Source: Enterobacteriaceae bacterium 89 (GTDB lineage Bacteria > Pseudomonadota > Gammaproteobacteria > Enterobacterales > Enterobacteriaceae). Taken from it: a stretch of DNA of 64,000 bases. Both the position numbers and the translations under genes were made by a program. Where the stretch lies: positions 1,022,331-1,086,330 of the forward strand of contig RQJH01000002.1 in assembly GCA_014156375.1 (NCBI GenBank), given 5' to 3'. Position 1 is the stretch's first letter, and every line of letters starts with the position of its first letter. The notes beneath the pieces were generated by a model. That model did no database searches. It had not been told where the DNA came from and was given only the letters and a program-made list of their open reading frames with translations. Shown one piece after another: positions 9,465 through 31,171 of the stretch.

Positions 9465-11120
9465 ATGAAACGCAGACTGCCTTTTCAGGTGAAGCTTTTT
9501 TTATCGCTGGTGCTCTTTTCCTGCCTGCTGCTGGCGCTGCTGGGCAGCATTCTCTTTCATATCATTGACCGCCAGGTGCATCACGACCTCGGCCAGCGCG
9601 CGCGGGTGCAGGCCAGCGAACTGGCGCTGATGCCGGGGCTGGCAGCAAAAGTTGCCGCGCGGGACACCAAAGGCATTGCCGAGCTGATCCAACCGATGCG
9701 CGCCGAAAGTGATGCCAGCTACATTGTGGTTGGCGATGCCAACGAGCAGCATCTGTATCATTCCGAGTCCCCCGAGCGTCTTAATCTGCCGATGATTGGC
9801 GGCGATAACGCCGAAGTGCTGAAAGGCAAAACTATTATTTCCGTACGCCAGGGTGGCATTGGCGTGTCGTTACGCAGTAAAGCGCCCATATTCGACGACC
9901 AGCATCGGGTGATCGGCATTGTTTCCGTTGGCTATCTGACCTCTTATATCGCCAATATCAACGCCCGCTTCCTCTGGCGCACAGCGCTGTATGGCGGCGC
10001 GCTGCTTCTGTTGCTGTTCATCTTCTCCTGGGTGTTTACCCGCAATCTGAAAAAGCAGATGTTCTGGCTGGAGCCGAAAGATATCGCCCTGATGGTGCTG
10101 CAACAAAAAGCACTGCTGGAAGCCATGTATGAGGGAGTGATCGCCGTCAATGAAGAAAAACGGCTGATCCTGATTAACCGCGCGGCAAGGGAGATGCTCG
10201 ATATTCGCCAGAGCGAAACCGATCTTATCGGTAAACCGCTGATGGAAGTCATGCAGGCGCCACCGGCGCTGTTCTCCGCCGATGAGACGCCGGATCGCCA
10301 CGATCACATCGCCGTGCTGAATCAGCGGCAGGTGATCGTCAACCGCGTCCCAATCGTTCTGGAACCGGGCGCGGAAAGCGGCTGGGTGTTCAGCTTCCGC
10401 GATCGGAATGATATCAATATGCTCAGCAGCCAGCTGAGCCAGGTTAAACGCTACGCCGACAACCTGCGGATCATGCGCCATGAACAGCTGAACTGGACTG
10501 CCACGCTGGTCGGTCTGTTGCAGATGCAGCGCTATGACGATGCGATGCGCTACATCAAAGCGCAGTCAGACGGCGCGCAGAGCGTGCTGGATTTTGTCTC
10601 GGCTCATTTCACCTCTCCGGCGCTGTGCGGTCTGCTGCTGGGCAAATACGTCAGCGCGCATGAGAAAGGCATTGAGCTGATGTTCGATCCGGCCTGTCAG
10701 CTTACCCGAATGCCGGAAAGCTTAAGCGAAACAGAGCTGATGTCGGTGATTGGCAACCTGGTGGACAACGCCGTGGATGCAACGCTGAATTCCGCCACGC
10801 CCACCGCGCCGGTAGAGCTCTACATTTCAGACCGCAATCAGGAGCTGCTGATTGAAGTCGCCGACCAGGGTTGCGGCGTGGATGACGCCCTGAAGCCACA
10901 GATTTTCGGCCAGGGCTTCACCAGCAAACCAGCCGGGCATCGCGATCTTGCCGGCGGCGAACACGGCATTGGCCTTTACCTGGTGGCAGGCTATGTACAA
11001 AAAGCGGGCGGCAGCATCGACGTCAGCGACAACACGCCACGGGGCACCATTTTTTCCGTTTTTATTCCTTATCCGTCTTCCTCATCGGGGCATGACCATG
11101 ACCAACACCAAAGCGCTTGA
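9465..11120 (+). CDS. CitA/DpiB-family sensor histidine kinase
   Basis: The 551-residue sensor has membrane segments at about 11-33 and 172-192 enclosing a periplasmic PAS-like domain, then a cytoplasmic PAS domain, a phosphoacceptor region around RHEQLNW, and an ATPase domain (NLVDNAVDA, DQGCGVD, GEHGIGLYLV). The periplasmic domain aligns by eye with Klebsiella CitA (GIVSVGY, SLRSKAP, QHLYH). Of the citrate-binding residues of CitA, His69, Arg107, Lys109 and Ser124 are kept (His99, Arg137, Lys139, Ser154), but Thr58, Arg66 and Ser101 are replaced by Val88, His96 and Gly131. A related but different carboxylate ligand is therefore inferred. The response regulator gene overlaps the 3' end, and an ABC transporter follows. 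Confidence 0.9.
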   Translation: MKRRLPFQVKLFLSLVLFSCLLLALLGSILFHIIDRQVHHDLGQRARVQASELALMPGLAAKVAARDTKGIAELIQPMRAESDASYIVVGDANEQHLYHSESPERLNLPMIGGDNAEVLKGKTIISVRQGGIGVSLRSKAPIFDDQHRVIGIVSVGYLTSYIANINARFLWRTALYGGALLLLLFIFSWVFTRNLKKQMFWLEPKDIALMVLQQKALLEAMYEGVIAVNEEKRLILINRAAREMLDIRQSETDLIGKPLMEVMQAPPALFSADETPDRHDHIAVLNQRQVIVNRVPIVLEPGAESGWVFSFRDRNDINMLSSQLSQVKRYADNLRIMRHEQLNWTATLVGLLQMQRYDDAMRYIKAQSDGAQSVLDFVSAHFTSPALCGLLLGKYVSAHEKGIELMFDPACQLTRMPESLSETELMSVIGNLVDNAVDATLNSATPTAPVELYISDRNQELLIEVADQGCGVDDALKPQIFGQGFTSKPAGHRDLAGGEHGIGLYLVAGYVQKAGGSIDVSDNTPRGTIFSVFIPYPSSSSGHDHDQHQSA

Positions 11121-11787
11121 TGTCGTCATTGTTGAAGATGAACCGCATCTGGCTGAATTACATCGCGAATATATCGAGCAGAATTTCCATCTGCGGGTGG
11201 TAGGCATCGCGGCCACGCTTGAGCAGGCGAGTACCCTGCTGCGTCAACACCAGCCGAGGCTTATCCTGTTGGATAACTATCTTCCGGACGGTCAGGGCGT
11301 GGATCTGATCGACAGCCCGCTGCTGAAAAGCTTTGAATGCTCGGTGATTTTCATCACCGCCGCCAGCGACATGCAGACCTGCAGCCACGCCATGCGTAGC
11401 GGCGCATTCGACTACCTGATCAAACCCGTGTTCTTCCAGCGGCTGCGAGTTTCGCTGGAGCGCTTTATGCGCCTGATCCACACCATGAAGCAGGTGAAAA
11501 ATGTCGATCAGCAGGCGCTGGATAAGCTGTTTAATCTGCCCACCAGCGAAGTGCCTACCGGCCCGTCGACCAAAGGCATCGAGCCGATCACCCTGGAGAC
11601 GATCAAACGCGCCTTCACCGACGAGCCGGATGCGCTCTGGTCGGTCGATCAGGTGGTGGAAAAAGTGGGGATCAGCAAAACCACGAGCCGTCGTTATCTG
11701 GAGTACTGCGTGGAAACGGAGTTTCTCAGCGTGGAGATCCTTTATGGCAGCGTCGGGCATCCCCGGCGGTTGTACCGGAAGAAGTGA
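11098..11787 (+). CDS. CitB/DpiA-family response regulator
   Basis: This 229-residue regulator has an N-terminal receiver domain with acidic pocket VEDE (13-16 region), phosphoacceptor Asp59 in LLDNYLPDG and a conserved TAASD, then a C-terminal helix-turn-helix (SVDQVVEKVGISKTTSRRYLEY) typical of DpiA/CitB. The reading frame is open further upstream, but the start is placed at the ATG at 11098 (alternative 11092) because the receiver domain begins there and GGGG lies just upstream. It overlaps the sensor gene by 23 bases, so translation is probably coupled. The nearest candidate target is the ABC transporter operon 250 bp downstream. Confidence 0.9.
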   Translation: MTNTKALDVVIVEDEPHLAELHREYIEQNFHLRVVGIAATLEQASTLLRQHQPRLILLDNYLPDGQGVDLIDSPLLKSFECSVIFITAASDMQTCSHAMRSGAFDYLIKPVFFQRLRVSLERFMRLIHTMKQVKNVDQQALDKLFNLPTSEVPTGPSTKGIEPITLETIKRAFTDEPDALWSVDQVVEKVGISKTTSRRYLEYCVETEFLSVEILYGSVGHPRRLYRKK

Positions 11788-11800
11788 GGAGTTACAGACC

Positions 11801-11874
11801 TTGCCCGGTGGCCGCGGACGCCTTACCGGACCTACAGGTTACGTAGGTCTGATAAGCAAAGCGCCATCAGGCAA
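11801..11874. repeat. REP/BIME element
   Basis: TTGCCCGGTGGC at one end and GCGCCATCAGGCAA at the other, with inner CCTACAGGT and ACGTAGGT arms, form the standard paired REP. It lies directly after the response regulator gene. Confidence 0.85.
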
Positions 11875-11970
11875 GGGATTTATCGGCACCTCTCCCTGTG
11901 GTTTTAATGGTGTTAATCCCTTAAACGACGCCAACAGTCACAGTTCAACAATCGCACAACGGCCCCCCTA

Positions 11971-11998
11971 TTGCCTGCAAAATCCCTTCAGCTATGTT
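11971..11998 (+). promoter_or_regulatory. Putative promoter of the ABC transporter operon
   Basis: TTGCCT at 11971-11976 and TATGTT at 11993-11998 have a 16-base spacer and lie about 40 bases before the binding-protein start. This is a modest sigma-70 match in the expected position. Confidence 0.35.
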
Positions 11999-12038
11999 GA
12001 CCATTAGTTCCTCAAATGTAACTAAAAGGTTAACTATA

Positions 12039-13127
12039 ATGTCGAACATCTTCCGTTTATCTCTGATTACTGGTGCTGTGCTCCTCTCCACTTCAGCCAT
12101 CGCGGCCGTGCAGCAGGGCTACCCTGCCGACTATCAAAAAGTGATTGATGCGGCGACCAAAGAAGGCAAAGTGGTGATTTACTCCACCACCGATACCAAA
12201 GCGGCGGGCCCGCTGATCCAGGGCTTTGAGGCCACCTATCCGGGCATCAAAGTGGAATATAACGATTTGAACAGCACCGAGCTGTACAACCGTTATATCA
12301 GCGAGCAGGCTTCCGGCAGCGGTAGCGGCGACGTGGTCTGGAGCTCATCAATGGATACCGCGCTGAAACTGGCGACCGACTACGCGCAGGAGTATAAGTC
12401 CCCTGAGCAGAGCCAGCTGCCAAAATGGGCGGTGTGGAATAACAAAGCCTACGGCACCACCTACGAGCCGGTGGTATTTATCTACAACAAACGTCTGATC
12501 CCGGCGAACGAAGTGCCGGACTCACACACCGCACTGGCGAAACTGATTGCCAGCCAGGCGGATAAATTCAAAAGCAAGGTTACCACCTACGACATCGAGA
12601 AATCGGGCCTCGGCTTTATGCTGTCAGTACAGGATTTCAAAGCCGATCCGAACTACTTCAAAACGCTGGCGGACGTGGCGAAAGGCGGCCTGTCGGTGCA
12701 GTCCTCGACCGGTACGATGATGGAACGCGTCTCCTCCGGCGAAAACCTGATTGGCTTTAACATTCTGGGTTCTTACGCCGAAGCGCGCGCCAAAACCGAT
12801 CCTTCATTAGGCATTTCTTATCCGAAGGATTACACCCTGGTGCTGTCCCGCGTCTCCTTTATCAGCAGCCAGGCGCAAAACGCCAATGCGGCTAAACTGT
12901 GGCTGGATTATGTGCTGTCTGAAAAAGGCCAGAATATCCTCGCTAATCAGGCCGATATTCCCTCCATCCGAAATGATATCGATGGCAAAAATGATATTGA
13001 CGGCATGACCAAAATGCTCGGCAAAGCGCTGAAACCTATTCCGGTTGATGAAAGCCTGCTGGAATATCTGCAGCCGAAAAAACGCCTGGATTATATCAAA
13101 CAGTGGCGCGAAGCTGCGGCAAAATAA
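12039..13127 (+). CDS. ABC transporter periplasmic substrate-binding protein (Fbp/Afu-like)
   Basis: The 362-residue protein starts with a signal peptide (residues 1-22, ending SAIAA) and continues with the fold of family-1/type-6 binding proteins: VVIYSTTDTKAAGPLIQGFEATYPGIKVEY at the mature N-terminus and a LWLDYVLSEKGQ segment near the C-terminus. The ATG at 12039 is chosen because AAAAGG lies about nine bases upstream and the signal peptide begins there. The relatives include ferric-ion (FbpA) and sugar-phosphate (AfuA) binders; the paired tyrosines typical of FbpA iron binding were not seen, so iron is not assumed. Permease and ATPase genes follow after a REP element. The CitA-like sensor upstream hints at an anionic organic substrate. 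Confidence 0.85.
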   Translation: MSNIFRLSLITGAVLLSTSAIAAVQQGYPADYQKVIDAATKEGKVVIYSTTDTKAAGPLIQGFEATYPGIKVEYNDLNSTELYNRYISEQASGSGSGDVVWSSSMDTALKLATDYAQEYKSPEQSQLPKWAVWNNKAYGTTYEPVVFIYNKRLIPANEVPDSHTALAKLIASQADKFKSKVTTYDIEKSGLGFMLSVQDFKADPNYFKTLADVAKGGLSVQSSTGTMMERVSSGENLIGFNILGSYAEARAKTDPSLGISYPKDYTLVLSRVSFISSQAQNANAAKLWLDYVLSEKGQNILANQADIPSIRNDIDGKNDIDGMTKMLGKALKPIPVDESLLEYLQPKKRLDYIKQWREAAAK

Positions 13128-13153
13128 CCCCTCAGTAAATACCCGGTAGCTGA

Positions 13154-13244
13154 TTGCCAGGTGGCGGCTAACGCCTTACCGGGCCTACAAAACCTGCTGT
13201 TTTTTAGGCTTTTGTAGGTCTGATAAGCGAAGCGCCATCAGGCA
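13154..13244. repeat. REP/BIME between binding-protein and permease genes
   Basis: TTGCCAGGTGGCGG and GCGCCATCAGGCA ends with inner CCTACAAAA and TTTTGTAGGT arms form a paired REP. Its place inside the operon suggests 3' protection of the binding-protein message, giving more binding protein than permease, as in the malE-malF gap of E. coli. Confidence 0.85.
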
Positions 13245-13280
13245 TATTGACCTACCGGATGGCCAGACCAGGGATATTCT

Positions 13281-15042
13281 ATGAACGCATTAACAAGAAA
13301 GTGGCAAAGCCTGCCGCGCGGCGTGGTGGTATTGATAACCGCACTGGTTATCTATATTCCGCTGTCGTTTATCGTGGTCCAGAGTTTTTTATCCGCGCCC
13401 TTCTTTTCTCCGGCAAAAGAGTGGAGCCTGGAATCTTTTGGCTTTATTTTCACCGACCCTGATTTTTATAAGGCGCTTAAAAGCGGCTTTATTCTGGCCT
13501 TCGGCCTGGTGGTTATCGCTATTCCGCTCGGGGGCGTGCTGGCCTTTTTAATGGTGCGTACCGATTTACCGGGCCGACGCCTGATTGAACCGCTGATCCT
13601 GGTGCCGATTTTTGTTTCACCGATGGTTTTAGGCTTTGGCTACGTGGTTGCCGCCGGTCCGGTCGGGTTCTTATCGCTGTGGGCGCAGTCGCTGATTGGC
13701 TTCGTGCCGTGGAATATCTACGACATGTCGAGCATCGTGGTGATTGCCGGGCTGACGCACGTTCCGCACGCCTATCTCTACATCTCCTCTGCGCTGCGCA
13801 GCGTGGGCTCGGACGTGGAGGAAGCCGCGCGCATCTCCGGCGCTTCGCCTTTGCAGGTGATGACCTCCGTCAGTCTGCCGATGGTGCGCCCTTCTATTCT
13901 GTACGCCATCGTGCTGCTGTTTTTCCTCGGGCTGGAAGTGTTCGGCCTGATGCTGGTGCTGGGAGACCCGGAGGGCAACATGGTGCTGGCAACCTACCTC
14001 TACCAGCTGACCAACAAGCTCGGCACGCCTTCCTATCATTTGATGGCCGCCGTCGCCGTGGTGTTGATTTGCATCACCATTCCGCTGGTGATGCTGCAGC
14101 GCAGACTGATGCGCACCGCCAACCGCTTTGTGACCATGAAGGGCAAAGCTTCGCAGGCCCGCGCGCTGCCGCTCGGCAAATGGCGTTGGGTTGCCGGAGC
14201 CGTGGTGGCTTTCTGGCTCACCGTCACCATCGGGGTGCCGCTACTCGGCGTAGTTCTGCGCGCGTTTATCTCCAACTGGGGCGTGGGCGTGTCAATTTGG
14301 GATGAGCTGTCGCTCAACACTTTCCGCACCATCTGGGCGCAGCCGAACCTGCTGCGTGCGATCGTCAACTCGATGGCGATTGGCGTGTTTGGCGGCGCGC
14401 TGGCGGTGGCCTGCTACCTGTTTGTCGGCATCGCCATGCACCGCAAACCGGACAACACCACGCGCTTCCTCGACTACAGCGTGCTGGTCCCACGCGCGGT
14501 GCCTGGATTACTCGCCGGTCTGGCATTTTTGTGGGTGTTCCTGTTCCTGCCGATGTGGCTCGATAACGCGCTGAAATCCGGCTGGCTCTCTGGAATGCCG
14601 TGGTCGCAGTGGCTGCGCGATAACCTGATCGTCTGGCTGCGTGGGCTTCGTAGCACCATCTTCAGCGTGTGGCTCGCCTACACCGTGGTGTGGATGGCAT
14701 ACGGCCTGCGGCTGATCTCCTCCACTTTGTTGCAGGTGGGACCGGAGCTGGAAGAAGCAGCGCGCAGCACCGGGGCCACGCGCGGGCAAATCACCCGTCA
14801 CGTCACCATCCCGCTGTCGCGCTACGGCCTGATTGGATCCTGGCTGCTAATGTTCCTGATTTTTGAACGTGAATATTCAACGGGCGTGTACCTGCTGTCG
14901 CCGGGCACCGAGACTATCGGCTCGATGCTGGTGTCTCTGTGGGCGGCCGGAGCCATCGACATCGTGGCGGCTCTCTCTTTTATTAACATCCTGCTGGTCG
15001 TGGTGGGTCTGGGTATTGCCCTGCGTTTCGGAGTGAAATTAC

Positions 15043-15050
<8 letters not shown>
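13281..15050 (+). CDS. ABC transporter permease, fused double-domain (FbpB type)
   Basis: At 589 residues this is a tandem fusion of two permease halves, each with about six membrane segments and its own EAA loop: EEAARISGASPLQVMTSVSLPMVRP in the first half and EEAARSTGATRGQITRHVTIPLSRYG in the second. This organisation is that of FbpB/AfuB-type permeases, so no second permease gene is needed. GGGA at 13271-13274 precedes the ATG by six bases. The 3' end overlaps the ATPase gene by eight bases, implying coupled translation. It forms the inner-membrane channel for the substrate delivered by the preceding binding protein. Confidence 0.92.
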
Positions 15051-16113
<1,063 letters not shown>

Positions 16114-16123
16114 ACGGAATAAA

Positions 16124-16209
16124 TTGCCCGATGCGCTGGAGCTTATCGGGCCTACGGGTCAGAGATTCATGTCATTCCGTAGGCCGGATAAGCAAAGCGC
16201 ATCCGGCAG
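16124..16209. repeat. REP/BIME element
   Basis: TTGCCCGATGCGCT and AGCGCATCCGGCA ends with inner CCTACGG and CCGTAGG arms form a paired REP between the ABC operon and the AAA ATPase gene. Confidence 0.85.
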
Positions 16210-16217
16210 TCAGTATC

Positions 16218-16226
16218 TGCTATAGT
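16218..16226 (+). promoter_or_regulatory. Extended -10 promoter of the AAA ATPase gene
   Basis: TGCTATAGT is an extended -10 element (TGnTATAGT) 28 bases before the ATG. No convincing -35 box is present because the REP element lies directly upstream. Confidence 0.45.
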
Positions 16227-16254
16227 GGCCCAGCATTTTTCAGTTGGAGCCATC

Positions 16255-17346
16255 ATGATCAAACAAATCCAAATTCAAAACTTCCGCTCGGTGCGTAACC
16301 TCGAGCTGGAGCTGGATAACCTGAACATTGTGTTTGGCCCTAACGGCTGCGGGAAATCGAATATCTATAAGGCCATTCAGCTGCTTTCTGCGGCGGCCAA
16401 CGGCAACTTTTCGCAGTTTCTGAGCGAGGAAGGCGGGCTGGAAAACGTGATGTGGTCCGGTCAGGCGGCGCTCACATCACGTGCTAAAAAGCGCATGCTG
16501 CTCTCCTGCGAAACCACCGACTATGAATATGAGCTGCAGGTTGGTTTCCCTGAACCCCTGGTCTCGATGTTTAACCTTGATCCAAAGTTCAAAGAAGAAC
16601 ATATCTGGCTCAGCGGCCATCGCCGCCGCCCTTCCGCCTGTGTGCTGCAGCGCAAATACAGCGCCGCGTTTCTCACCAACGTCAACGGGGAAAAGAGCAC
16701 CTACAGCAAGACCATTTATGAGAATGAGTCAGTGTTTGGTCAATTGAGCGATCCGCACCTTTACCCGGAAGTGTCGCAGGTGCGTGAATCGATGCGTAAC
16801 TGGCGCTTCTATCATGAGTTCAATATCTCCCGCCATTCAGCGCTGCGTATTCCGCAGGTGGGTTACCGTTCTCCGGTGTTAGCCAGCGATGGCAGCAACC
16901 TGGCGGCAGCGTTTCAGACCCTGGTGGAAATCGGCGGCGTGAAAGAAATGGAAGAGATCCTCGACAGCGCCTTCCCGGACTGCCGGTTCTTCGTCGAAAA
17001 TGAGCGTTCGCGCTTTACCCTGCTGATGCAGAAACGCGGATTAATCCGCCCGCTTTCCACCGCAGAACTGTCTGACGGAACCCTGCGTTTTCTGTGCCTG
17101 ACGGTGGCTTTACTCAGCCCTCGCCCGCCCGCGTTTATCGCGCTTAATGAGCCAGAAAACAGTCTTCATCCGCAAATGTTACCCGCACTGGCTAAGCTGA
17201 TTATTGAAGCATCGCGCTATACGCAAATCTGGCTTACCAGCCACTCTCCGGTACTGGCGGAGCTGATTGGTAAAGAGATAGCGTTCCGGTTTTATGAGCT
17301 GGAGAATAACGACGGGGAAACAAAAATCCGCGAGCAGAACTTTTGA
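16255..17346 (+). CDS. Solitary AAA-family (RecF/SMC-like) ATPase
   Basis: The 363-residue protein has an SMC/RecF-like N-terminus (IQIQNFRSVRNLELE), Walker A GPNGCGKSN at 28-36, a signature-like ELSDGTLRFL, and a Walker B region FIALNEPENSLHPQM. The asparagine where the catalytic strand usually has aspartate seems usual for the COG4637 group, as far as I recall. The ATG at 16255 follows TTGGAG with good spacing. There is no TOPRIM domain, nuclease, methylase or other partner, so an anti-phage OLD/RloC-type role is not supported. It is preceded by a REP and followed by a long AT-rich gap, and is probably monocistronic. Cellular function is unknown. Confidence 0.8.
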   Translation: MIKQIQIQNFRSVRNLELELDNLNIVFGPNGCGKSNIYKAIQLLSAAANGNFSQFLSEEGGLENVMWSGQAALTSRAKKRMLLSCETTDYEYELQVGFPEPLVSMFNLDPKFKEEHIWLSGHRRRPSACVLQRKYSAAFLTNVNGEKSTYSKTIYENESVFGQLSDPHLYPEVSQVRESMRNWRFYHEFNISRHSALRIPQVGYRSPVLASDGSNLAAAFQTLVEIGGVKEMEEILDSAFPDCRFFVENERSRFTLLMQKRGLIRPLSTAELSDGTLRFLCLTVALLSPRPPAFIALNEPENSLHPQMLPALAKLIIEASRYTQIWLTSHSPVLAELIGKEIAFRFYELENNDGETKIREQNF

Positions 17347-17457
17347 TTGGGTTATTTAATCACAGAACACAATCAATTTATTTTTAAATAATCACACCCC
17401 TATTATTTATTAATAAACATAATAGCTCATTGCCTCAGATAAAAAACAACAATACAG

Positions 17458-17484
17458 TTGCACGCTATTTATGTTTTTTATAAT
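17458..17484 (+). promoter_or_regulatory. Putative promoter of the His-Pro repeat gene
   Basis: A consensus TATAAT at 17479-17484 lies 48 bases before the ATG. TTGCAC at 17458-17463 is the best -35 box, but the spacer is only 15 bases. The surrounding 185-bp gap is very AT-rich. Confidence 0.45.
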
Positions 17485-17531
17485 CACCGATACGGACCTG
17501 AAATATCAGGTCGGCATCATTGAGGTAACCC

Positions 17532-17831
17532 ATGAAAAAAATCATTATCGCTCTGGCCTTCGCTACCACTGCACTTCCGGCTCTGGCTGGTTATCACCCG
17601 GTTGCACGTACTGCCGTTGTTGCTGGATCTGACCATCCTGTTGCGATGGCGGCGGCCACCTCAGGTAACGGCAACCACCCGGTTGCGCGTGGCACAGTTA
17701 TCGCAGGCTCCGATCATCCTGCGGCGATGGCCGTTGCCACTGGCGAAGGTCACCATCCGGTTGCCCGCACCGCCGTTGTTGCGGGTTCCGATCATCCTGC
17801 GGCCGCTATGGCTGCCACGGGGCATTATTGA
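17532..17831 (+). CDS. Small exported protein of 13-residue His-Pro repeats
   Basis: The 99-residue protein has a textbook signal peptide (1-19, ending LPALA). The mature 80 residues are a repeat: His-Pro pairs at 22, 35, 49, 62, 75 and 88, that is every 13 residues with one extra residue in one unit. Units alternate between type A (HPVARTAVVAGSD) and type B (HPAAMAVATGEGH), giving three A-B pairs. There are eight histidines and no cysteine or lysine in the mature part. The gene has its own TATAAT promoter, a GAGG ribosome site eight bases or so upstream, and a downstream hairpin, so it looks real. I do not recognise the family. Periplasmic or secreted metal binding is a guess from the histidine pattern. 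Confidence 0.75.
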   Translation: MKKIIIALAFATTALPALAGYHPVARTAVVAGSDHPVAMAAATSGNGNHPVARGTVIAGSDHPAAMAVATGEGHHPVARTAVVAGSDHPAAAMAATGHY

Positions 17832-17841
17832 TAGCCTTCCT

Positions 17842-17861
17842 CCCCGGCAGTTATGCCGGGG
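17842..17861 (+). terminator. Hairpin after the His-Pro repeat gene
   Basis: CCCCGGCA and TGCCGGGG form a perfect eight-base stem with a GTTA loop eleven bases after the stop. The T run (CTTTTTATTCTT) begins eleven bases later, so termination is likely but not ideal. Confidence 0.6.
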
Positions 17862-18088
17862 CAGATTCTGACCTTTTTATTCTTAGCATCTCACCCTCTT
17901 CAGCTAACAATTAGTCCTCATCAATAATACTTATAATATCGAGCAAAAAGTTTTGCTGATCACAAAATGACCTGCCCATTCTTTGCTCCCTTCGTCATCC
18001 AGGCTTACTTTACTCATGAAAGATTCGGATATCTTACTTACGCAAAATAAGCTTAGCCTTACGATGCGCTATTCAGGGAGTCATAGAT

Positions 18089-20782
18089 ATGAGCCATTCA
18101 ACAACGAAGAAAAGCTTATTTACTCTTTCAGCTTTAGCTGCCGTGGTTCTTCAGGCCATTGCCTGCCCGGCATTAGCGGAAGAGAGGGAGAGTGAAGATA
18201 AAAATCGCCTCACTCAGAGTACTAATAGCAGCATCACTTTATTCTCCTCACCTCCAGTCAATACAGGCAGTTATGCGGTAATTAACAATGGCGATACGCT
18301 GATACTTTCCCAATCCGATAACACCGGTAATGTGTGGGATAAGTTTAAAAGTATTACGGTGGGTGATAACACTAATGGCACGCTGATTATCGATAACCGG
18401 CAAATCACCACCACCAGCGGCAGTATTGGTAACAACGCTTTGGGCTCAGTCACCTTAACCAATCAGGCAAATTGGACGCTGGAAGGTGGAAATTTAGTCC
18501 TGGGGACTAATAACGGCTCGGCTTTGCTGACGGTAGAAAAAGGGAGTCAAATCTCCGGTATCAAAGAGTTCAGGGTCGGTGAGTTTTATGCTGGGGCCGT
18601 AGCGAAAGTGGCTATCGATGGCCCTGACTCCTCAGTATCCTCTGGATGGATCGTCGTGGGCGATCAGGGGAAAGGCCATGTTGACATAACGAATGGCGGT
18701 AGTATGACTTCTGCCAAACATATGAATATTGGATATGTGGGTAACACCGATACGACACAAAGAAACGGCTACGGTAGCGTTCATCTTGATGGAGAAAATT
18801 CAACGCTGAATGTGGCTTCCGGTCTTTATCTGGGTGGCTTTGACCCCGCTAAAAATAATGACGCGACCGGCATACTGACCGCCAGCAATGGCGCTATCGT
18901 CAATGTTGGAAGTTTTATCTGGCTGGGTACAGGCAAAGGCAGCACCGGAATAATGAATATCGGTGGCGAACAGGATAAAGCCGCTCAGGCTGCAGGACAG
19001 GTGAACACCAGGCAGATTTATCTCGGTGAAACAGCATCTACTGGCACCACCGCGGTGCTTAATTTTAATCATCTGAGCGATGATTTTGTTCTGGCCGCCG
19101 CTATTAATGGTAAGGGCACGGTCAACCACGTTGGGCAAGGCACCACTACCCTAACCGGTAATAATAGCTATTACGGCATAACTGACGTCAAGAACGGGAC
19201 TTTGCGCGCTGGTAGTCAGAATGCGTTTAGCTCCAACTCCGATTTTAACGTTGGCACCAACGGTATTCTGGACCTCGGCGGCTTCGATCAGACCATCAAC
19301 TCATTAGTGCTGGCCGGAACAATTAACACCAGTCAGACCTCACATAGCCCTGACGAAAGTACCCCGGCAAATAACATTTTGACCATCAAAGGCAATTACC
19401 ATGGTGAGAATGGTCTGCTGATCTATAACGCCGCACAAAAAACGGATGACAATACCTCAGTGGTGAACCAGCTGTACGTTGAGGGAAATACTTCGGGTAC
19501 CACAAGAGTCAGCATGCAGGAAATTGGCTCGGTGGCGGTCAGCGATCTTAACGGCATGAAGGTGGTTCACGTTGAAGGAGAGTCTAACGGTCACTTTGTC
19601 CGCGAAGGACGACTGGCCGCGGGCGTGCATGAATACTCATTACAACGCGGCCCGGTCACTGAGGAGACAGCACTCGCCCGCTCTGCCGTAGATGACTCCA
19701 ACCACTGGTATCTGACCAACCAAACCTGGATTGCTCCGACCGATCCGACAGAAGAGCTTCCTCCAGGTGAAACACCAGAAACTCCACCGATCGCACCGCC
19801 TGGAGTCGTGCCGAAAGAAGGCGTGGTTTATCGCCCGGAAGTGGGCAGCTATTTAGCCAACCGCATGGCAGCCAACACCATGTTTAACACCCGCCTGCAT
19901 GACCGCTTGGGGGAAACGCAGTATATCGATCCCGTTACCGGCGAATCCCGGGTCACCAGCATGTGGCTGCGCCAGGTTGGGGGGCATATGCGCTTTCGCG
20001 ATAATACCGGGCAGATGAAAACCCAGAGCAATCGCTATGTTGCGCAGCTGGGCGGCGATATTGCCCAGTGGAGCAGCGACGGTCTGGACCGCTGGCATCT
20101 GGGGTTGATGGCCGGTTACGGCAACAACAGCAGCTCAACACAATCTTCAGTGACGGGCTATCACGCCAAAGGGAAAGTCACCGGCTACAGCGCAGGCTTG
20201 TACGCAACCTGGTATGCGAATGAAGCTGACAAAACAGGACTTTATGTAGACTCCTGGGCATTGTGGAACTGGTTTGACAATCAGGTGAATGGTCAGCAGC
20301 TTGCCACAGAGAAGTACGATTCCGACGGGCTGACGGCTTCGGTCGAGACAGGGTACACCTTCAAACCTGGCGGCAGCGTGCAGATACAGCCAAAAGCCCA
20401 GCTCACCTGGATGGATGTGTCTGCCAACGATCACTATGAGGAAAACGGCACCCGGATCCGCGATACAGGAAAAGGTAATCTGCAGAGTCGTCTGGGTTTA
20501 CGCGCCTCTATCGAGGGCTACAGCCAGCTCGATGAAGGAAAAGGCAGGATGTTCCAGCCCTTTGTTGAAGCGAACTGGATCCACAACACTCAGGATTTCT
20601 CCGTCGCCATGAACGAGTTTGATGCCAACGTGAAAGGCAGCAAAAACATTGGCGAGCTTAAAGCCGGACTTGAAGCCAGAACCAGTAAAAACCTGCATTT
20701 GTGGGGTAACGTCGCCCAGCAGATTGGCGGCGATGGCTACAGCGATACTCAGGCCATGCTCGGCGTAAAATGGGTGTTCTAG
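18089..20782 (+). CDS. Type V autotransporter adhesin (pertactin/AIDA-like barrel)
   Basis: The 897-residue protein has a long signal peptide (about 1-30, ending CPALA), a passenger rich in Gly, Asn, Thr and Ser forming beta-helix repeats, and an autotransporter-associated strand repeat near residues 350-410 (GTTTLTGNNSYYG, NGTLRAGS, DLGGFDQTI). A proline-rich linker near 555-575 (ELPPGETPETPP) precedes a C-terminal barrel of about 300 residues ending in the outer-membrane signature VKWVF. It should display its passenger at the cell surface. The passenger is cysteine-free after the signal peptide. It is monocistronic, followed by a terminator. A MarT/FidL-like regulator pair lies 3 kb away, recalling MarT control of the MisL autotransporter in Salmonella. 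Confidence 0.92.
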   Translation: MSHSTTKKSLFTLSALAAVVLQAIACPALAEERESEDKNRLTQSTNSSITLFSSPPVNTGSYAVINNGDTLILSQSDNTGNVWDKFKSITVGDNTNGTLIIDNRQITTTSGSIGNNALGSVTLTNQANWTLEGGNLVLGTNNGSALLTVEKGSQISGIKEFRVGEFYAGAVAKVAIDGPDSSVSSGWIVVGDQGKGHVDITNGGSMTSAKHMNIGYVGNTDTTQRNGYGSVHLDGENSTLNVASGLYLGGFDPAKNNDATGILTASNGAIVNVGSFIWLGTGKGSTGIMNIGGEQDKAAQAAGQVNTRQIYLGETASTGTTAVLNFNHLSDDFVLAAAINGKGTVNHVGQGTTTLTGNNSYYGITDVKNGTLRAGSQNAFSSNSDFNVGTNGILDLGGFDQTINSLVLAGTINTSQTSHSPDESTPANNILTIKGNYHGENGLLIYNAAQKTDDNTSVVNQLYVEGNTSGTTRVSMQEIGSVAVSDLNGMKVVHVEGESNGHFVREGRLAAGVHEYSLQRGPVTEETALARSAVDDSNHWYLTNQTWIAPTDPTEELPPGETPETPPIAPPGVVPKEGVVYRPEVGSYLANRMAANTMFNTRLHDRLGETQYIDPVTGESRVTSMWLRQVGGHMRFRDNTGQMKTQSNRYVAQLGGDIAQWSSDGLDRWHLGLMAGYGNNSSSTQSSVTGYHAKGKVTGYSAGLYATWYANEADKTGLYVDSWALWNWFDNQVNGQQLATEKYDSDGLTASVETGYTFKPGGSVQIQPKAQLTWMDVSANDHYEENGTRIRDTGKGNLQSRLGLRASIEGYSQLDEGKGRMFQPFVEANWIHNTQDFSVAMNEFDANVKGSKNIGELKAGLEARTSKNLHLWGNVAQQIGGDGYSDTQAMLGVKWVF

Positions 20783-20817
20783 GGAATAGCCATTTACGCT
20801 AATAACGGCAATATTTA

Positions 20818-20850
20818 GGCCAGCGGAGGAGAAATTCTCTGCTGGCCTTT
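20818..20850 (+). terminator. Rho-independent terminator after the autotransporter
   Basis: GGCCAGCGGAG and CTCTGCTGGCC form a long stem with one G-T pair, followed by TTTT. It lies 35 bases after the stop codon. Confidence 0.85.
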
Positions 20851-21010
20851 TGCATGGAGAGCTCGACTTTTATCCCAACCCATCTTTTGAATACGCTGTT
20901 GGTCCCACGCTCAAACACGCTATCCTGACTGTAATACCGCTGCTTCAGGTCAGAGGATTATCTTCATTGATGGCCAGTTGTTCGTCTTGCTCAAGGAGAG
21001 GGATCGTTCC

Positions 21011-21946
21011 TTATTTCAGCGCGGCGCACAGCGCTGCAATATCTTTTGGCGTGGTCCGGCAACAGCCGCCAATCAGTTTTGCCCCTGCTTCCAGCCATTG
21101 CGGCAGATAGTCCGCCAGCGTCTGGCAGGCTTCCCCGTGATGGTGCCAGGTCTTGGTCACAGCGTCGTAGTGTTCACCCGAGTTCGGGTAAACCACCAGC
21201 GGCAGCTGCGTCAGGTTTTGCAGGTGTTTCAGCGCCGCCGTGGTGTTTTCCAGTGCGATGCAATTGATACCGAGCGCCACAATTTGCGGCGAGCCCGCCA
21301 GCGCAGAGATAACGTCACGCAGAGGAGTACCGTCGCTCAGGTGTTCGCTGTCACGCAGGGTAAACGAGAACCACGCCCGGGCACGAGGATATTCTGATAA
21401 CAGTGCCGCCAGCGCCTTGATCTCCGCAAAGGCTGGCATCGTTTCACAGGCCAGCAGATCGGCTCCGGCATCCAGTAACGCCTCAATGCGCGGACGATGG
21501 AATGCCTTAAATTCTTCATCGCTGCGAAGGTAGTCGCCGCGATATTCCGAGCCATCGGCCAGAAAAGCGCCGTACGGTCCCACGGAACCGGCCACCAGCA
21601 GTGGCCCCGCCTGGGCATTCTGCGCAAACCAGGCCTCACGCGCCTGGCGCGCCAGCTCCACGCTTTTACCAATCAGCGCGAGTGACTGCCCCACATCAAG
21701 GCCTCTTGCGGCAAAGCCCTGCGGAGTGGCCTGATAGCTGGCCGTTATGGCTATCTGCGCTCCGGCACGGAAATAATCAAAATGAACCTCCTGGATAAGA
21801 CCCGGATTTTCCATCAGCACTTTGGCCGACCACAGGCTGTCCGCCAGGTTACAGCCTCGCGCTTCCAGCTCCGTTGCCATCGCGCCGTCCAGCACCACAA
21901 AAGGCTGTGTTTCAAGGAGAGCGGCGAGCGGATTATTCTGCGACAT
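21011..21946 (-). CDS. mmuM: Homocysteine S-methyltransferase MmuM
   Basis: MmuM transfers a methyl group from S-methylmethionine to homocysteine, giving two methionines, in the cytoplasm. The 311-residue length matches E. coli MmuM. The zinc-binding cysteines are visible: one in [10 protein letters not shown] and the pair Cys295-Cys296 in [10 protein letters not shown]. The gene overlaps the end of mmuP by 14 bases on the same strand, so the two are translated together. Control by MetJ is expected from the met boxes upstream of mmuP. Confidence 0.95.
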
Positions 21947-23330
21947 GTTCAGGCTCCTGCGTTTTCACACGTTCAGTGAGGTAATAAGCCCCGTAGCAGA
22001 GGGCAACAAATGGCAGGCCGCAGTAAAGGGCGATTCTCTGGCTCGGGTCAAACGCCAGCCCCACGCAGGCCACTGCGCACAAAATAAAGCCCAGCACGGG
22101 CACCAGCGGATACCAGGGCGCACGATACTGAAGAGCCGACAGCGGCAAACCGGCCTGCAAATGACGGCGGCGGAACATAAAATGCGATGCGCAGATACTT
22201 AGCCATACCGCCACCACCGCAAAACCAGAAATGGCCGACAGCGCGACAAACACCGTATCCGGCGCGACAACGCTGGTGAACAGCGCCATGACCCCGCCAA
22301 GCATCGACACTGACAGAGCTGTCAGCGGAACGCCGTTTTTGTTGAGGCGGGCAAAGCAGCGCGGCAGCGTCTTCTCATTGGATAATGACCACAGCATACG
22401 ACCCGCAGCGTACAGCCCGGAGTTTGCCGCAGAAAGGATCGCCGTCAGGATCACAAAGTTAAAGATATCCGCCGCATACGGGATCCCCACTTTTTCGAAC
22501 ACCAGCACGAACGGGCTTTTTTCCACCCCGGCCTGCTGCATTGGGATCAGCGCCGCCAGCACAAACACGGTACCGATAAAGAAGATGATCAGACGTGCAA
22601 TGGTGGTGCGAATCGCCACCGGAATAACCCGGTGCGGATCCTGCGTTTCGCCCGCCGCAATGCCGATAAGCTCGGTCCCGGAAAACGCAAAGTTAACCGC
22701 GACCATCGTCATCAGAATAGGCAAGCCGCCGTGAGGGAACCATCCCTCAGCTGTGATATTCGCTAACCCCGGCGCCGGGGAACCATCCTGCATCGGGATG
22801 AAGCCAAAAATGGCGGCTCCGCCAAGGATAATAAAGGCGATGATGGTGATGACCTTCACCAGTGAGAACCAAAATTCCCCCTCGGCAAAGAAACGGGTCG
22901 AGATGACGTTAAGACCAAAAATGACCACGCAGAAGAGCACGCACCACGACCAGACGGGCACCTGCGGGAACCAGTACTGCATGCAGAATCCGGCGGCAGT
23001 AAAGCTCGAACCCAGCGCGACGGTCCAGGTCAGCCAGTAGAGCCACGCCACCGTGTAGCCCGTTGCCGGGCCAAGATAGCGGGCTGCATAGACGTGAAAC
23101 GCGCCGGTTTCCGGCATAGCGACGGAGAGTTCGCCCAGGCACTGCATCACCAGCCACACGACCAGCGCACCAATCAGATAAGCCAGCAGCGTTCCCGCCG
23201 CTCCGGTGGTCGAAATGATGTAGCCCGTGTTGAAAAACAGCCCTGTGCCGATCACGCCCCCCAGGGAGAGCATGATCAGATGACGGGTTTTCATGGTGCG
23301 CTTGAGCTGTCCATTTTGTTCTGTTTGCAT
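21933..23330 (-). CDS. mmuP: S-methylmethionine permease MmuP
   Basis: This 465-residue amino-acid/polyamine/organocation permease imports S-methylmethionine for MmuM. It has twelve predicted membrane segments and is nearly identical by eye to E. coli MmuP, including the N-terminal [15 protein letters not shown] signature and the C-terminal QEPEHVAE. The start at 23330 (MQTEQNGQ) is chosen by homology and the AGAAGG ribosome site just upstream; the frame runs eight codons further without support. Tandem met boxes overlap the promoter region. It is the first gene of the mmuPM operon. Confidence 0.95.
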
Positions 23331-31094: not shown

Positions 31095-31171
31095 TGGCAC
31101 GCCCTACAGGATTCGAACCTGTGACCTACGGCTTAGAAGGCCGTTGCTCTATCCAGCTGAGCTAAGGGCGC
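31095..31171 (-). tRNA. argU: tRNA-Arg(UCU)
   Basis: The 77-base minus-strand sequence begins GCGCCCTTAGCTCAGCTGG, has the anticodon loop CTTCTAA giving anticodon UCU, the T-arm GGTTCGAATCC, and an encoded CCA end at 31097-31095. It matches E. coli argU closely and decodes the rare AGA codon. It sits beside the fim regulator genes as in E. coli and Salmonella. argU 3' ends are known phage and island attachment sites, and the 3' side here faces the accessory fimbrial operon. Confidence 0.97.

Follow-up and report, generated by a model that had tools for sequence, protein, structure and literature searches.

The gene at positions 17532 to 17831 of the window, the whole stretch of 64,000 nucleotides that was analysed, is a real and hitherto undescribed gene encoding a small repeat protein, predicted to be exported, and occurs scattered among enterobacteria. 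A lifestyle as a stand-alone accessory gene is tentatively proposed for it, that is, a gene spread horizontally among enterobacteria, partly as phage cargo, whose envelope product would offer three copies of one short binding module; this account as a whole is rated just short of an even chance. What had been noticed as an isolated oddity is thereby placed within a tractable gene family, which is small, intact and under selection, comprises one- and three-module forms and is easy to test owing to a few invariant residues. The features of the gene and its immediate surroundings are the following:

17376–17391, plus strand: AT-rich upstream element ATTTATTTTTAAATAA, found by motif search, the window copy being among the weaker matches
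17458–17484, plus strand: possible promoter, consisting of TTGCAC (17458–17463), 15 nt and TATAAT (17479–17484), from the sequence
17522–17526, plus strand: ribosome-binding site GAGGT, from the sequence
17532–17831, plus strand: gene of the predicted exported three-module protein, 99 amino acids plus stop, median dN/dS 0.15
17532–17588, plus strand: predicted signal peptide, residues 1–19 (MKK...ALPALA), with the cut expected before Gly20, from the sequence and the AxA rule
17595–17675, plus strand: module 1 (A 17595–17633, B 17634–17675), from the translation and the units of 17 relatives
17676–17753, plus strand: module 2 (A 17676–17714, B 17715–17753), from the translation and the units of 17 relatives
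17754–17828, plus strand: module 3 (A 17754–17792, B 17793–17828, the latter of 12 residues), from the translation and the units of 17 relatives
17840–17864, plus strand: hairpin 3' of the gene (8-bp core 17842–17861), perhaps the end of transcription, from folding

The predicted signal sequence of the window protein, MKKIIIALAFATTALPALA, is followed by a mature chain of 80 residues (residues 20–99, as set by the AxA rule) that holds the three modules. An export signal, as claimed by the sequence-only reading, is supported, and the composition given there for the mature chain (eight His, no Cys, no Lys) was confirmed; the chain further contains three Arg, three Asp, one Glu and two Tyr, and is free of Phe and Trp. 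Moreover, the 99-residue translation carries all six His-Pro pairs at the residues previously read (22, 35, 49, 62, 75 and 88), with a single 14-residue step from 35 to 49. Likewise, the threefold alternation of A and B units holds, since the window protein consists of three A+B modules. Its A-units 1 and 3 are identical, and its B-units all differ. The self-match of the chain at a lag of 26 residues was 22, compared to a shuffled mean of 6.4, and none of 20000 shuffles reached this value; at lag 27, for which no shuffle control was run, it was 23. At lag 13, a self-match of 16 was obtained compared to a shuffled mean of 8.0, which was reached by 53 of 20000 shuffles. Since the signal at lag 26 exceeds that at lag 13, the main period is represented by A and B jointly (26–27 residues, three copies). 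The 13-residue period originally described thus exceeds chance, but it is a weaker sub-period of a stronger unit, for which the consensus is approximately HP[VI]AR-x7-D followed by HPVAxAAAT-x(4-5).

Expression signals around the gene agreed in part with the earlier description of a TATAAT promoter and a hairpin behind the gene. TATAAT is present, but its partner TTGCAC is poor, the spacer measures just 15 nt and a promoter scan listed no promoter at the window gene. AGAGGT-like sites also precede several relatives. The hairpin is stable (-18.9 kcal/mol, z -2.9; equalled by none of 200 shuffles), and hairpins were also found 3' of the gene in both relatives that were folded (L064 and L065). 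Its T-run, however, begins approximately 13 nt past the stem core, with none adjacent, and the scan listed no intrinsic terminator behind the window gene. Furthermore, an AT-rich motif (about ATYYAAATTAAAYAA) is common to the three-module genes at -114 to -239 from the start codon. It scored 15.0 bits in 16 upstream regions (L003 being omitted as near-identical to L002), compared to 9.6–10.0 bits in six shuffled sets, which were single-base shuffles ignoring relatedness. This element is perhaps an activator site or an UP-like element.

After removal of duplicates and including the window protein, the family comprises 17 different three-module proteins and 16 different one-module proteins, all with intact frames; L098, a further three-module form with a start that escaped the search pattern, and L085 are outside this set. 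The latter, a broken second copy in the Rahnella genome G1043, lacks the start, departs from the family sequence at its end and is a decaying copy. One-module forms consist of a signal sequence and one module, followed by the tail C-N-D-G-(H/R)-C with its two Cys residues. Both types are linked by L016, which combines a three-module-like start with this tail. The search for homologues of variable repeat number suggested by the sequence-only reading thus yielded relatives with three modules or one, and forms with two or four modules were not seen among the family proteins.

Within the bacterial family, the gene is distributed patchily and was detected in 13 of 392 genomes (window genome counted). 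Counting in each case the genome from which the search was made, it is present in six of seven genomes of the window's genus (one of them with two copies), in genus g2 in 4 of 20 genomes and in the Rahnella genus in 3 of 14; for genus g144 the count is 13 of 60 (11 one-module, 2 three-module). Relatives were matched in three Rahnella species and in Enterobacter sp. CC120223-11. No match was obtained in 5,426 E. coli genomes at the DNA level, among plasmids, or in the INPHARED phages with the window protein as query. Six hits outside the bacterial family, obtained in the order and class searches (E 5e-5 to 0.008), lacked a comparable HP-repeat frame at their centres and were not counted. Five weak matches (E 0.002 to 0.01) among the 18 genomes matched by the one-module profile were likewise excluded from the counts; the two of these that were inspected had no HP-repeat frame.

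The sequence-only reading knew no family with this pattern, and the database searches agreed with this: the window protein and three relatives had no match in Pfam and NCBIfam at the curated cut-offs and the window protein had none in PHROGs at E values up to 0.01. Repeat strings of the family were not found anywhere in the text of 5.39 million PMC papers, and nothing on the window protein was found among the matches listed for the topic literature, within the parts of the papers that these matches present.

Pairs with dS between 0.02 and 1.5 gave a median dN/dS of 0.15 among three-module proteins, where 37 of 136 pairs were usable, and of 0.056 among one-module proteins (81 of 120 usable). 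The two medians are not strictly comparable because the one-module pairs are mostly from one genus or from similar viral contigs. These low values indicate that the frame is under purifying selection. The sequence-only reading had named a high dN/dS among close relatives as counter-evidence, and the opposite was found.

Arg (A5), Asp (A13), Pro (B2) and Thr (B9) are kept in 51 of 51 modules of the 17 three-module proteins. The pattern used for splitting the units demands Arg and Asp, and the counts stand because each of the 17 proteins was split into exactly three A-units and three B-units. The His of the His-Pro pairs, in comparison, is kept at 93 of 102 sites (46 of 51 in A-units, 47 of 51 in B-units), and mature three-module chains vary between four and eight His and between zero and four Met. 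Hence, the emphasis previously placed on histidine was not supported. All 16 one-module proteins have Arg, Thr and both His (His at 32 of 32 sites), and 10 of the 16 have Asp. Regarding the history of the modules, identity is 0.76 between modules of the same index across genes, 0.71 within one gene and 0.66 between modules of different index. Since modules of the same index are most alike, the triplication probably took place before these genes diverged, accompanied by some homogenisation within individual lineages.

An IMG/VR phage contig (L073/L076) carries a three-module gene, flanked on one side by a DNA methyltransferase gene, which follows a Q-like antiterminator, and on the other by the terminase genes. 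Similarity of this contig to the phages SfV and mEp460 ends 22–25 nt before the methylase end, approximately 250 nt 5' of the gene, and similarity to Citrobacter phage phiNP reaches about 20 nt beyond the methylase end, approximately 200 nt before the gene. In SfV and mEp460, holin/lysis genes follow at most 80 nt behind the methylase, where L073/L076 has the repeat gene. When 15 bacterial regions were compared to this phage, 11 aligned, in the gene alone plus at most 17 nt before it, and the other four gave no alignment at E 1e-5. Similarity of window positions 15001–22000 to L076 and L075 is also confined to the gene. Neither the phage-borne copy nor the scatter among genomes was visible to the sequence-only reading.

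Further viral contigs are less clear in origin. In L074/L075, the gene is located near the left contig end next to a UmuD-like gene, and a tail-fibre gene is found at a greater distance; because the flanks in genome G1076 resemble those of L074/L075, this copy may be either phage or host DNA. Contigs L077–L081 end at a one-module gene, behind an 11–12-nt copy of the 3' end of tRNA-Arg(CCT). This arrangement is most simply explained by a prophage inserted between the tRNA and the gene, so that in these contigs the one-module gene probably belongs to host DNA outside the att site.

In the window, the gene is neighboured by genes for an AAA ATPase and an autotransporter, no phage gene is found beside it and it is not part of a prophage. 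The upstream neighbour (16225–17346) is an AAA_21-type ATPase, the Pfam name of which mentions AbiEii; such ATPases are often found among defence genes. Further upstream (9465–16113), genes for a sensor kinase (Cache and PAS domains), a solute-binding protein, a long permease-like frame recognized by eye and an ABC ATPase represent an uptake system with its own regulator. The autotransporter is encoded downstream of the gene in the window (18089–20782) and upstream of it in L062 (4030–6945), both genomes belonging to the same genus. Its candidacy as a partner was dropped in view of these opposite sides and of an alignment limited to the C-terminal region (43% identity).

Neighbour clusters shared across genera were sought for 17 copies (15 bacterial regions, L004 and the window). 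For the three-module copies, no syntenic block was found between genera, and within 3 kb just single genes recur at 35–81% identity; accordingly, a conserved operon was rejected for this form. Recurring genes encode a response regulator common to L004 with L058 and L063 (35%), a 148–152-residue protein common to L068 and L071 (49%), and a 261–264-residue protein common to L068 and the one-module region L069 (50%); genes at 81% and 55% identity are common to the one-module region L072 and L064, L067. The one-module regions L070 and L072, which represent two genera and are located at tRNA-Arg(CCT), have four flanking genes in common (79–91% identity), indicating that the one-module form has a stable chromosomal locus there.

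A tRNA-Arg gene is located 132–1854 nt 5' of the gene in four of the 15 regions (two loci, each in two genomes), namely tRNA-Arg(TCT) at 375 and 912 nt in L058 and L063 of one genus and tRNA-Arg(CCT) at 132 and 1854 nt in L072 and L070. From their anticodons, these loci are presumably argU (L058/L063) and argW (L070/L072). What is presumably icd, named from its sequence, lies upstream in two of the 15 regions, approximately 200 nt away in L065 and with one gene between in L064. As stated in the respective papers, the E. coli tRNA-Arg gene argU is the site of DLP12 and icd that of e14 (PMC6379469), and phage Kapi1 has its site at argW (PMC8787464). Direct repeats of at least 12 bases of the tRNA end (four regions) or the icd end (two regions) were not found behind the gene. 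The tRNA-Arg(TCT) gene of the window (31095–31171) is 13.3 kb from the repeat gene, with fimbrial-type and other genes between them.

In the gene tree, the phage copy L073 clusters with one representative of the window's genus (support 0.91), and a copy of genus g65 with those of g144 (0.88). Deep splits are weakly supported (0.19–0.69), so that the gene tree alone is no proof of transfer; the recA tree holds the window's genus together (0.92). Synonymous distances (dS) between the window copy and the six copies of its own genus range from 1.36 to 3.99, compared to 0.44–0.46 for recA, and those to two Rahnella copies, among the pairs listed, are 1.46 and 1.50 (recA 0.82 and 0.86). The window copy is thus about equally far from its own genus and from these two Rahnella copies at distances near saturation, which is just a hint of non-orthologous copies. 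Between genera, dS of the gene exceeded that of recA in all 68 usable pairs of 93. There is consequently no sign of recent exchange, and recent transfer as judged by synonymous distance was discarded as unsupported. Considering together the scattered loci, the absence of blocks common to three-module copies, and the copy found in a phage, horizontal spread is the best, though unproven, account, and we infer such an origin for the window copy as well.

According to the preferred account, the gene would move from one enterobacterial genome to another, phages probably being one of its vehicles. Its product would be exported via Sec to the envelope, either remaining in the periplasm or being released, and cleavage of the signal would leave three modules of 26–27 residues. 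Each module may present the same small binding surface, formed by Asp-His-Pro, Arg and Thr; with three copies, the avidity for one envelope or surface partner would increase. The one-module relatives with their two-Cys tail suggest that one module can suffice; three copies, or one copy plus the two-Cys tail, would then perform the same envelope task, from which the host might benefit. Taken alone, this binding-module mechanism is doubtful. A shade more doubtful is the wider proposition of a new exported binding module, in which Arg and Thr are invariant, Asp mostly so and the His-Pro pair nearly so, and which is swapped as a bare gene between phages and chromosomes and, in its one-module form with two-Cys tail or its three-module form, alters the host envelope, for example to counter a rival phage or metal toxicity. 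If the product does alter the host envelope, it would add a new module to the few understood lysogenic-conversion factors.

Among the alternatives, a periplasmic metal sponge or chaperone is unlikely but still the least improbable. His-Pro sites and an N-terminal X-X-His would bind Cu(II), Ni(II) or Zn(II), similar to SilE/PcoE with Ag/Cu. N-terminal X-X-His is a Cu(II)/Ni(II) site, and a mature N-terminus X-X-His-Pro is expected in 11 of the 17 three-module forms and X-His-Pro in five. Moreover, eight His in 80 residues behind an export signal, the absence of Phe and Trp with two Tyr present, and the one-module forms, which hold both His throughout and contain Cys in 16 of 16 proteins, fit this function. 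However, the His of the His-Pro pairs is replaced at 9 of 102 sites and the mature His number falls to four, in contrast to SilE and PcoE, for which section 5 of PMC5008109 describes all ten His as kept at 48% identity. These losses argue against a strict metal site; H..M or M..H spacing is absent in 33 of 33 proteins, and by eye no metal-handling neighbour was seen within approximately 2.6 kb in 9 of 15 regions. Metal binding is therefore possible but not favoured. Somewhat less likely than this is a structural role, in which the modules would stack, one coil each, into a small beta-solenoid or an amyloid-like fibre carrying Arg-Asp ladders, serving as a cell coat. The regular period of 26–27 residues, the small residues and the invariant Arg, Asp and Thr at fixed places are compatible with it, and strand and helix propensities of the A segment are about equal (1.17 and 1.14), but the B segment favours helix (1.25 versus 1.09); these Chou-Fasman averages do not decide between helix and strand. 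Three units or one provide few coils for a solenoid, and the selective maintenance of one-module forms speaks against a fold dependent on the stacking of many coils. In addition, a curli-type motif was found in none of the 33 proteins, and the sole solved chain below E 0.001 represents a match of periodicity.

An equally improbable explanation is a phage-spread factor for superinfection exclusion or envelope protection, acting by lysogenic conversion. Small exported products are common as phage cargo, and one copy is positioned in a phage between late-gene control and packaging genes; the window copy, however, resides outside a prophage and nothing points to a phage target. A precedent is HK97 gp15, a superinfection-exclusion moron according to a title cited in PMC6379469. 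Least probable by far is a peptide precursor, from which proteolysis would free the modules as peptides with a signalling or antimicrobial role. A tandem array of nearly identical modules following a signal peptide would suit such a precursor, as would a weak profile similarity to the 13-residue lysostaphin propeptide repeats, but the mature window protein has no dibasic site and position-specific differences between modules are kept (0.76 versus 0.66), unlike in a plain array of one peptide. With respect to lysostaphin, the Pfam family Lysostaphin_N (PF25533) was hit at E 0.011 with 16.2 bits, below the gathering cut-off of 60, and 6rk4_A (lysostaphin propeptide, residues 40–255) matched the family profile at E 1.9e-5 for the whole chain. 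Each aligned stretch alone had an i-Evalue of at least 0.21, and the His of His-Pro as well as the invariant Arg were without counterpart. Kinship was set aside after this residue-by-residue comparison, the match reflecting periodicity and composition. It also illustrates that periodic low-complexity repeats inflate profile scores.

Compared to known systems, the family shares with the N-terminal repeats of lysostaphin the 13-residue tandem repeats of a protein destined for export, but the window protein has no enzyme domain. Curli repeats follow the motif S-x5-Q-x-G-x-(G/A)-N, and the unit of CsgA comprises approximately 22 residues. Like CsgA, the family proteins are predicted to be exported and are built of regular short units, but these measure 26–27 residues, lack the Gln/Asn ladder motif and number three or one. 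Members of the SilE/PcoE family bind metal and fold on binding. SilE and PcoE are likewise small and exported with tandem His-containing motifs, described in section 5 of PMC5008109 as repeated MxxHxxxxxHxxM and HxxMxxxHxxM. Neither motif occurs in any of the 17 three-module or 16 one-module proteins, which are devoid of HxxM and MxxH altogether; His is less fixed in the three-module forms, and no Pfam or NCBIfam metal family matched. Finally, phage morons and lysogenic-conversion cargo, such as Bor and Lom, resemble the L073/L076 copy in export signal, patchy spread and position as an extra among phage modules. The term moron is used here in the sense given in PMC6469090. A moron would have its own promoter and terminator and be expressed in the lysogen; at the window copy, the corresponding features are the TATAAT with its 15-nt spacer and the hairpin lacking an adjacent T-run. 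The window copy differs from morons in its location outside a prophage, and no PHROG matched; the L073/L076 copy, in turn, is an extra gene that is absent at the same place in the related phages SfV and mEp460, the two phages compared.
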